Assembly (NCBI GenBank): GCA_026390495.1
Contig: JAPLFV010000308.1
Location: 22,332-54,508 of the forward strand
From: Pseudomonadota bacterium
GTDB taxonomy: Bacteria; Bdellovibrionota_B; Oligoflexia; Oligoflexales; RGVZ01
Length of the DNA: 32,177 bases
Direction: 5' to 3'
Shown here: one piece after another, positions 25,155-29,590 of the stretch
Layout of the letters: every line of letters starts with the position of its first letter
How positions within the stretch are numbered: the first letter of the stretch is position 1
The notes under the pieces: generated by a model
The model's database searches: none
What the model saw: the letters and a program-made list of their open reading frames with translations, nothing else
Told to the model about the DNA's origin: nothing
Program-made: the position numbers and the translations under genes

Positions 25155-27859
25155 ATGGCATCTACGTCAACTCGTTTCTCGTTCGCAACGGCAACTAATG
25201 TTTCCTACTTAGAGGAAATGTACGAGAAATTTAAGCGAGACCCAAATTCTGTCGATGAATCTTGGCAAAAGTTTTTTGATGGCTATGAATTTGCAATTAC
25301 TAATGGAGCTGGAAGCGACGTTGCTTCAACCGGTGATCAAGAAGCTGCGATGGTGGAAGCCTATATAAATGCTTACCGAGTTTTGGGGCATCTAAGCGCA
25401 CATTTAAATCCTCTAGCGCCTAAGCCCGAAATTAAAAGTGAGATGCGCCCTGAAAACCATGGTTTAAAGAACGTGAATCAAACGAGAAAGTTTTTGGCGG
25501 CAAATTTGCCTGGAAACACTCAACGCACTTTTTCTGAGATCAATACTCTTCTGCAAGAGACATACTGCGGCAGTATTGGGGCCGAGTTTCGCGATAACGA
25601 TGATATCGATTTTGTGAAATGGATTCAGGAGAAAATGGAGTCATGTAGAAACAAACCAGCATTTCCTAAAGAAAAGAAAATTCAAATATTAGATGCTTTG
25701 GTAAAAGCGGAAGGTTTTGAATCTTTTCTACAAGCGCGCTATTTGGGGCAAAAGAGATTCTCACTCGAAGGAGCAGAGTCTTTTATGGCTGTTCTTGAAG
25801 CCGTGGCAGAGGCTTCCGCTGCGACAGGTGTCGAAGAAATTGCTATCGGCATGGCTCACCGTGGTCGACTTGGGACCCTTTGCAATTTTATGGGTAAAAG
25901 TTACGAGCAAATGTTCAAGAAATTTGATGGATCAGAATATAATCCATTTCAAATTGATGGTGATGTAAAATATCATTTGGGTTTTGCAAGTGAGAAGAAA
26001 TTTGGATCGAAAAATCTTAGATTGTATCTTTCTCCAAATCCTAGTCACTTAGAGATTGTGAATCCGGTTGTTGAAGGTTTGGTTCGAGCAAGGCAGCGAG
26101 TTCTAAATGACATAGAACGTAAAAAAGTCTTGCCCCTATTGGTTCACGGTGACGCAGCTTTTATTGGGATCCTATCGACAGCCGCAGCTGTACTTACGCT
26201 TCGGGAATTGCCAAGTTGTTGAAAGCACCTGTGCTGCACGTCAATGCCGATGACCCTGAAGCGGTTGTTTGGTGTGCGATGCTTGCCGCTGAATATCGTC
26301 AAAGATGGGGAAAAGATTTTGTTATCGATTTGATTGGCTATCGCAGATACGGGCACAATGAGACGGATGAACCAAGTTTCACTCAACCTCAAATGTATAA
26401 GATTATAGGAAGCCATCAAACCGTGCTTACAAAGTATGGTGATCGAATGGTCAAGGAAGGGGTTTTGTCGGTTGAAGATTTGAAGAAGAGGCAGGCGGAT
26501 TTTAGGTCTGAGCTGCAAGCATCATATGATTTAGTGAAATCTGGGGTTAAATCTAGCCCTAAATTTGAATCGATTTATCCGAAGCCTTTTGATCAAATCT
26601 TTCATCCAAAAAATGGCACAGAGGCAGATATGTTGACACCTGTGAAAACGGGAGTGTCTCTGAAAACGTTGACTGAAGTTGGTAGAAAGTTTCTATCGGT
26701 TCCAGCAGGTTTTCAGCCGCATCAAAAAGTGCAAAGGCTTATTGAGCAGAGACTAAAGATGCTAGAAAATTCAGGCGGCGGAGTTGATTGGCCGATGGCA
26801 GAACTTTTGGCATTTGGAACTCTAGGAAACGAAGGTAAGCACGTAAGGCTTTCTGGGCAGGATTGCCAAAGAGGAACATTTTCTAGTCGCCATGCTGTGA
26901 TTCGTGACTTTGAAACAGGGAAACCTCTGGAGCTGTTAAATCAAATTTCAAAAACCCAAGCGCCAGTCGAGATATTAAATAGTCCGTTGTCGGAGTTAGG
27001 GGTGATGGGTTTTGAGTACGGCTACACTATTGCTGATTCAGAGAGTTTAGTTTTATGGGAAGGGCAGTTTGGAGATTTTGTGAATGGAGCCCAAATAGTC
27101 ATCGATCAATTTATCGTAGCGAGTGAAGCAAAATGGAATCAAACAAGTGGTCTTGTTCTGCTATTGCCTCACGGTTATGAAGGAATGGGTCCAGAACATT
27201 CATCTGCAAGACCAGAGAGATTTCTACAGTTGTGTGGAAATGACAATATTCAAGTGGCATATCCGTCAACAGCGGCGCAATATTTTCATATTTTGCGAAG
27301 GCAGTTGCATCGTGATTTTAGGAAGCCTTTGGTTATTATGTCGCCAAAATCATTGCTACGTCATCCGAAAGTTGTCAGCCAATTGGAGGAATTCGAAACC
27401 GGAAAATTTGTCGAGGTCTTAGACGACAGTCGTTTATCAGATCCGAAATCAGTTAAGAGAATTGTGTTCTGCACTGGAAAAATATTTTATGAATTGACTG
27501 AGACCGCGAAGGATTCTGCTGATGTTGCGTTCGTGCGGATTGAGCAACTTTATCCTTTCCCTAAAAAGGCAATTACAGATATTTTGTCTCGCTATAAAAA
27601 TGCAAAAGATTTGGTTTGGTGTCAGGAAGAACCACAAAATATGGGTGCTTGGACTTTTGTTCGCCCTCGTTTAGAGGATATTTTAGGTGACAAAAATCAT
27701 GTAAAATATGTGGGAAGGCGTGACAGCGGCACCACGGCTGAAGGTGTAACCAAGGCACACGTTGCAGAACAGCAGCGCATTGTGAATGAGTCAATTGGTA
27801 TCTCATCCGGCAGCGCTGGCGAAAAAGAAAAATCATCAAAGGGAACAGCGAAGAAATAA
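25155..27859 (+). pseudogene. sucA: 2-oxoglutarate dehydrogenase E1, interrupted by an internal deletion/frameshift
   Basis: 5' frame (25155-26222) matches E1 to HGDAAF; 3' frame resumes at ~26168 as DPIDSRSCTYASGIAKLLKAPVLHVNADDPEAVVW to 27859. About 106 nt are missing between them relative to usual E1 spacing. Confidence 0.85.
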
Positions 27860-28689: not shown

Positions 28690-28778
28690 AAGCGCCTAGG
28701 TCTTTTGTGCACCACTGCTCCGACTCAGATTGTCTATCGAATAGCAGCAAATCTCCTTTCTAGGCAAAAATTGTACAT

Positions 28779-28806
28779 TTTCAGTCGGAACGTTATCCAA
28801 TATAAT
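28779..28806 (+). promoter_or_regulatory. Promoter candidate for the Cys-rich lipoprotein
   Basis: Perfect TATAAT at 28801; weak -35 TTTCAG, 16-nt spacer. Confidence 0.4.
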
Positions 28807-28849
28807 TTTAGTAGTGAGTAACGACTCAAATCATTTGGGAGGTTCAATC

Positions 28850-29590
28850 GTGACAATTCAATGGCGAAATCTTTTGAAAGCCATATTGCTTTTGGGAGTT
28901 ATGAATACAGTTACCGCTTGTAAAGATGGTGCTAAGGAAAGCTCTTCTGCTCAAGGCCCAAAGGATCCCGCTTGCTCTAGTAAAACTGCGGCTCAATGTT
29001 CAAAGAGTGCTGACTGCACAACTAGTGGAACTGAATGTATCGTGAGCTCGACTTTTTGTAAAAAATTTGCAGCAAAGGACGAATGTGCAAAAATGACCTC
29101 CTGCAGTTGGGATGAGACGTTAGAGTCTTGTGATGCGCCAAAGTCGTCTGGGACAGGCGGAACTGGTGGTTCAGGCTCAGATTCCACCGCAACTTGCGAG
29201 TCCATTACAAGTTCTGCTGAGTGCGGGACTAACTTTAGTTGTGAATGGAATGCTGGATTAAACCGATGTTTGAGCAAATCAACAACAGATTCAAACTCTA
29301 CTTCAACCTCTTGTGGTCAAATTTTCAATCAAACGTCATGTGCAGCTAAAACTGGTTGTCAGTGGAATGGAACGACTTGCGTTGCTTCGACGACTTATAG
29401 TTCTTGCGGTAGCTACACTCAGACACAGTGCGTTGCGCCTTTGTGTTCTTGGACGGGAACACAATGTATTGAGGCAAACACCAATGGAACTGGAACAAAC
29501 GCATCTTGTACTGGCAAAGAACTATTGATGTGCTTGTTTGCAAAAGGTTGTACCTGGAAATTCCCAATGGGTCCTTGCCAGGCCAAATAG
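28850..29590 (+). CDS. Cysteine-rich lipoprotein with six tandem four-Cys modules
   Basis: GTG start with GGGAGG; lipobox-like VTAC; repeated C-x(6-9)-C-x(5)-C-x-W-x(n)-C modules. Confidence 0.75.
   Translation: MTIQWRNLLKAILLLGVMNTVTACKDGAKESSSAQGPKDPACSSKTAAQCSKSADCTTSGTECIVSSTFCKKFAAKDECAKMTSCSWDETLESCDAPKSSGTGGTGGSGSDSTATCESITSSAECGTNFSCEWNAGLNRCLSKSTTDSNSTSTSCGQIFNQTSCAAKTGCQWNGTTCVASTTYSSCGSYTQTQCVAPLCSWTGTQCIEANTNGTGTNASCTGKELLMCLFAKGCTWKFPMGPCQAK

Follow-up and report, generated by a model that had tools for sequence, protein, structure and literature searches.

One gene in the window, which here denotes the entire 32,177-nucleotide stretch of DNA that was analyzed, from a bacterium of the order Oligoflexales, encodes a 246-residue lipoprotein composed of small four-cysteine modules (Table 1), and it is the single module gene found in its genome by a search with a module HMM. 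The interval given for this protein in the preliminary description, 28973-29587, correctly ends with the last sense codon but begins at the first cysteine of module 1, whereas the gene itself occupies 28850-29590. The assignment of a promoter of its own, with TATAAT at position 28801, is borne out as a consensus match; the site is the best of four candidates, and shuffled sequence averages 1.7. No Rfam element was found, and the whole protein gave no match in an NCBIfam search or in a phmmer search of the PDB.

The lipobox proposed to precede the repeats is present as VTAC (residues 21-24), which fits the bacterial lipoprotein pattern [LVI][ASTVI][GAS]C, and its cysteine is invariant across five aligned proteins comprising the window protein and its same-genus relatives. 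The mature chain of 223 residues contains 25 cysteines, one of which is the lipid-anchor residue, with the other 24 corresponding to six modules of four. The preliminary description had noted neither the gene start with its signal peptide, nor this exact multiple of four, nor the conserved cap character of modules 1 and 6.

Table 1. Coordinates of the lipoprotein gene and its parts within the window
Feature	Position	Strand	Remarks
Sigma-70-type promoter-like site, TTTTCA-17 nt-TATAAT	28778..28806	+	10/12 matches; consensus match only
Ribosome-binding site, GGGAGG	28837..28842	+	7 nt ahead of GTG; from sequence
Whole gene, 246-aa lipoprotein	28850..29590	+	GTG start, TAG stop; alignment of relatives extends over the signal peptide
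Signal peptide, residues 1-23, up to lipobox V-T-A-(C)	28850..28918	+	From sequence
Lipid-anchor cysteine Cys24, +2 residue Lys	28919..28921	+	From alignment of relatives
Module 1, N-cap type without Trp (CSSKTAAQCSKSADCTTSGTEC)	28973..29038	+	Trp-less in all four same-genus relatives too
Module 2 (CKKFAAKDECAKMTSCSWDETLESC)	29057..29131	+	Rigid pair with module 1 predicted
21-residue Gly/Ser/Thr linker	29132..29194	+	Disorder predicted
Module 3 (CESITSSAECGTNFSCEWNAGLNRC)	29195..29269	+	Top PSI match of the protein: PF01437 E 0.0014, 19.3 bits (cut-off 23.1)
Module 4 (CGQIFNQTSCAAKTGCQWNGTTC)	29312..29380	+	34.5 bits against the module HMM
Module 5 (CGSYTQTQCVAPLCSWTGTQC)	29405..29467	+	Four-Cys module
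Module 6, C-cap type (CTGKELLMCLFAKGCTWKFPMGPC)	29507..29578	+	LLMCLF-(A/T)-(K/Q)-GC in common with L013:10690-11361; LLKC form in L014:7850-8785

Tandem four-cysteine modules

The six modules are present exactly as first listed, and their arrangement is far from what chance would produce. The mature sequence was shuffled 100,000 times, and not one of the resulting sequences had six four-cysteine modules (six observed) or as many as three bearing C-x-W (five observed). Spacing in the window protein follows C1-x(7-8)-C2-x(4-5)-C3-x-W, with six or eight residues between C3 and C4, and the commonest spacing of the module is 8,5,6 (most modules read C-x8-C-x5-C-x-W, with x6 or x8 separating C3 from C4). 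The Thr/Ser/Gly-rich linkers noted earlier do lie between modules, and they are predicted to be disordered. In an alignment of 56 two-module rows drawn from the window and related loci, the positions C, C, C, W, and C are invariant in each module; 78 aligned modules, all with four cysteines, share only five invariant residues, and conservation outside the Cys, Trp, and Gly positions is low.

The first module indeed lacks tryptophan, and the same Trp-less form, with D-P/A-x-C just before it, opens the module region of the same-genus proteins. The final module reads LLMCLFAKGC in the window protein, LLMCLFTQGC in one relative, and LLKCAYSPNC in another. Because the same forms recur in same-genus relatives, modules 1 and 6 are cap types rather than decayed copies.

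Relatives and distribution

A search of 56 related genomes recovered relatives in two genomes of the same genus and in one genome of the same order. The four same-genus proteins, of 207, 224, 312, and 375 residues, derive from the Oligoflexales MAGs ZE-Jul18-111 and RH-23may17-54 (G001 and G004) and are 28-35% identical to the window protein, with which they share a lipobox, a Trp-less N-cap, W-modules of the same spacing, and a conserved cap. They contain three to nine modules, compared with six in the window protein. The number of cysteines in their mature chains is again a multiple of four (36, 20, and 28, the last with two more in a lectin part), and the exceptions to this rule are confined to those two residues of the C-terminal lectin part and to six cysteines in a divergent C-terminus. 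The 375-residue relative (L011:9597-10724) carries a lipobox, seven modules, and, at its C-terminus, a B-lectin-like region, which matches Pfam B_lectin at E 8e-6, under the cut-off, and the lectin part of the putidacin bacteriocin family in NCBIfam at E 7.5e-19, under the cut-off of the full-length model. Two of the other relatives, in two genomes, are flanked by what we take, from naming the genes by eye, to be the same fumarase and LeuRS genes, whereas the window gene adjoins an M48 protease gene.

Among 84,980 species genomes, a single-module DNA pattern matched at least 119 stretches, most of which look like chance occurrences, and the arrays recovered in this way constitute a presence list rather than a census. 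True arrays among the matches listed belong to two unclassified bacterial MAGs, one Myxococcota and one 'Deltaproteobacteria' MAG, and Woesearchaeota/DPANN archaea, and the module HMM confirmed modules in all eight genomes tested. Array size across relatives ranges from 2 to about 50 modules. Two genomes of the same order encode proteins of 1619 and 1035 residues (L010:2342-7201 and L112:3600-6704) in which about 30 and 12 modules, respectively, are preceded by an alpha-helical N-terminal repeat domain; the PDB matches of the 1619-residue protein are designed helical proteins only and involve this helical part. Very large open frames in the two unclassified bacterial MAGs (L124:1-7998 and L153:3-8000) hold about 46 and 42 modules together with other Cys-rich and Asp-rich repeats. 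Large and probably secreted proteins of Woesearchaeota/DPANN archaea (L116, L049, L047, L048, and L056) hold 2-18 modules, and in two of these the array begins directly after the signal peptide.

Searches of phages and plasmids by tblastn found no relatives, the single viral contig matching the pattern contained no array, and a protein scan of genome contigs confirmed no relative. Prokaryotic modules of this kind did not turn up in searches of the open-access literature, although this is not proof of absence.

Predicted fold

For two window modules, AlphaFold2 returned a pLDDT of 79. For the whole mature chain, the modules were modeled at pLDDT values of about 80-92 and the linkers at less than 50, with a pTM of 0.32, and four stretches were predicted to be disordered (residues 1-10, 79-89, 123-129, and 189-194). 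A helix-strand-strand pattern repeats across the modules, so that the same fold of a helix and two strands is predicted for each. A repeated fold is thus predicted, and the searches did not show a well-described domain, so that neither of the two outcomes named in the preliminary description as refuting it occurred. In the model, modules 1 and 2 seem to form a single rigid block, with the remaining modules as beads on flexible Ser/Thr/Gly linkers, and the chain as a whole would lack a fixed overall shape, in the manner of beads on a string. The earlier suggestion of a disulfide-bonded stalk is accordingly revised: because the linkers are predicted to be disordered and the pTM is low, a flexible bead chain takes the place of a rigid stalk.

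Comparison with the PDB by Foldseek gave 21 listed matches with E values of 2.7-9.7, none of them significant alone. Sixteen of these are semaphorins or plexins, which are PSI-containing proteins and are presumably matched in their PSI domain, and a further two are VSG C-terminal domains. Many of the alignments cover about 30 residues, at 0.8-2.6 A. Foldseek comparison with viral models yielded matches of 24-28 residues at 0.5-0.6 A to mimivirus R327 and a Megavirus early transcription factor, with E values of 0.4-0.6 that are not significant.

Similarity to PSI domains and eukaryotic surface proteins

The likeness to PSI modules, which animal receptors are known to contain, holds in part as first proposed. 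Against the Pfam PSI model (PF01437; 52 positions, cut-off 23.1 bits), fragments of the window protein stay under the cut-off, the best, from module 3, coming close to it, and five fragments of relatives (from L124 and L153) pass it with 23.5-26.6 bits. The matches of the relatives always lie within profile positions 1-36, and the match in general is confined to the first 30-36 positions (about 60% of the profile), with four of eight cysteines kept. PSI was matched, at E values up to 10, by 23 of 56 two-module fragments and by 2 of 56 after shuffling with Cys and Trp fixed; the corresponding counts for Paramecium_SA were 25 and 4. Neither family was found when long arrays were searched whole in Pfam, probably because of HMMER's composition filter, and short fragments were required.

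The PSI domain of RON contains eight cysteines joined as C527-C545, C536-C552, C548-C558, and C533-C567 (PMC3405059), and its C1-C3 and C4-C6 intervals, with 8 and 6 residues between, are the commonest module spacings. From this equality we infer that the module corresponds to PSI C1, C3, C4, and C6, which predicts disulfides C1-C3 and C2-C4 within each module, the counterparts of C527-C545 and C536-C552 in RON (PSI C1-C4 and C3-C6). The module carries a C-x-W motif, as PSI does, and is predicted to combine a helix with a hairpin in the manner of PSI, but it has four cysteines instead of eight; PSI C2, C5, C7, and C8 have no counterpart in it, nor does the closing third of the profile. Unlike PSI proteins, the module arrays are tandem, occur in prokaryotic lipoproteins, and are accompanied by neither a sema propeller nor an integrin. 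Judged by sequence against the eight-cysteine definition, the module is best described as PSI-like and not as a canonical PSI domain.

Paramecium_SA (PF01508; cut-off 21.2 bits) was the sole family returned when the whole protein was searched against Pfam, at 14.1 bits, and it remained under the cut-off everywhere tested, the best relative fragment shown reaching 20.4 bits. About two modules fit each 62-position profile. The likeness, for which the link is one Pfam model, consists of periodic cysteines with C-x-W, tandem arrays, and, as predicted for the window protein, a lipid-anchored surface location; the Paramecium surface antigens are GPI-anchored and form a multigene family, whereas the window protein has a bacterial lipobox and is encoded by the one such gene found in its genome. 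Ciliate antigens with periodic cysteines form coats, and their function is still unclear (PMC9788069).

VSG C-terminal domains are the only PDB sequences matched by the module profile, at E values of 0.02 and above (best, 0.021-0.024), and the best fragment shown against PF10659 scored 14.7 bits, under the cut-off of 21.4 bits. In T. brucei, these domains place four-cysteine units, each with four conserved cysteines and a conserved aromatic residue, and flexible linkers by the lipid anchor, and they act through size and flexibility (PMC12226131). The VSG C-terminal domain (PF10659; 2JWG, 1XU6) resembles the window protein in having four cysteines and an aromatic residue per unit, flexible linkers, and an adjacent lipid anchor, and it is the closest functional analog for which there are data. 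It differs in that one or two such units form the membrane-proximal stem of a large antigen, whereas the modules of the window protein make up the whole mature protein.

Discussion

Sequence and computation resolve the export signal, the modules, the repeated predicted fold, the disordered linkers, and the similarity to the PSI profile. On balance, we favor the interpretation that the window gene encodes an unnamed four-cysteine PSI-like variant, deployed in an exported, lipid-anchored, flexible chain of beads that serves as a surface spacer or adhesive element. The mature chain would comprise six autonomous two-disulfide miniature domains with Ser/Thr/Gly linkers between them. Each W-type module would represent a four-cysteine PSI core in which a short helical part carries C1 and C2 and a two-stranded hairpin carries C3-x-W and C4, and the predicted C1-C3 and C2-C4 pairs would form by Dsb-dependent oxidation after export. 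The genome encodes three DsbA-like proteins and DsbB, which makes oxidation on export plausible. The lipidated N-terminus would hold the chain in the outer membrane, presumably exposed at the cell surface, from which a flexible, protease-resistant bead chain might project outward as a spacer or adhesive element, possibly with a binding role; the conserved C-cap module 6 would be its most likely contact tip. Against this interpretation, the window protein has no distal effector domain and itself passes no Pfam cut-off, and no Foldseek match is significant alone. By analogy, the lectin-bearing relative suggests that such a chain can present a binding domain, and this relative, with its lectin domain beyond the modules, is what speaks for an adhesin role, as its sole support.

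The modules might instead be an independent, convergent small cysteine-rich repeat, with the likeness to PSI, Paramecium_SA, and the VSG C-terminal domain reflecting the few ways to build a minidomain with two disulfides and one tryptophan; the proposed architecture and role may hold even so. We give this explanation somewhat less than an even chance. It is consistent with the similar scores of the modules against three unrelated eukaryotic families, with the small number of invariant residues per module, and with Foldseek E values that all exceed 1 for the PDB matches, but it sits poorly with the loss of both the PSI and Paramecium_SA signals in Cys/Trp-fixed shuffles, with the several modules above the PSI cut-off, and with the exact agreement in spacing with RON. 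A single structural core common to the prokaryotic module, which occurs in several bacterial phyla and DPANN archaea, and to PSI, ciliate immobilization-antigen repeats, and VSG C-terminal domains, inherited from a two-disulfide ancestor that was either ancient or dispersed by horizontal transfer, is a speculative notion that we think doubtful.

Other alternatives concern location and role. In Gram-negative bacteria, numerous lipoproteins of the outer membrane are oriented toward the periplasm, and a lipobox alone is no proof of surface exposure, so the protein could be a periplasm-facing envelope component acting as a spacer or as an organizer of peptidoglycan and outer membrane. We regard this as rather unlikely, since the lectin-bearing relative, the very long arrays of other relatives, and the secreted arrays of archaea better suit an outward role. 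The bead chain might also serve as a passive coat that has no specific ligand and shields the cell from phage, predators, or proteases, much as ciliate immobilization antigens may do. The low conservation beyond Cys, Trp, and Gly, the wide range in module number, and the coats formed by ciliate antigens with periodic cysteines (PMC9788069) are in keeping with such a role; the conserved cap modules and the lectin fusion, however, suggest position-specific functions, and the single gene contrasts with antigen families, which together lead us to consider a passive coat improbable. That the Cys4 modules bind metal and form no disulfides seems extremely improbable. Weak matches to a TRAF2 zinc-finger model were obtained for 18 of 56 fragments (best E 0.0014), but the protein is exported, Dsb enzymes are encoded, the modules have neither CxxC pairs nor His ligands, and the matches to disulfide domains are stronger and sensitive to shuffling; a zinc finger was rejected on these grounds.

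If the favored interpretation of a PSI-like bead chain is correct, a four-cysteine, half-size, tandem unit in bacteria and DPANN archaea would provide a minimal unit of the PSI fold. The modules might represent a prokaryotic source or counterpart of PSI, and they would offer a single object for testing the idea of one core common to PSI, ciliate antigens, and VSG stems. No Pfam or NCBIfam model above its cut-off covers the window protein, and the arrays suggest that bead-chain proteins of the cell surface make up a class that has escaped annotation.

Elsewhere in the window, the 2-oxoglutarate dehydrogenase E1 gene (25155-27859) consists of two overlapping frames, 25155-26222 and 26216-27859. 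Relative to the family, roughly 40 residues are apparently absent at the junction, and the split represents either an assembly error or a broken gene next to intact E2/E3 genes.
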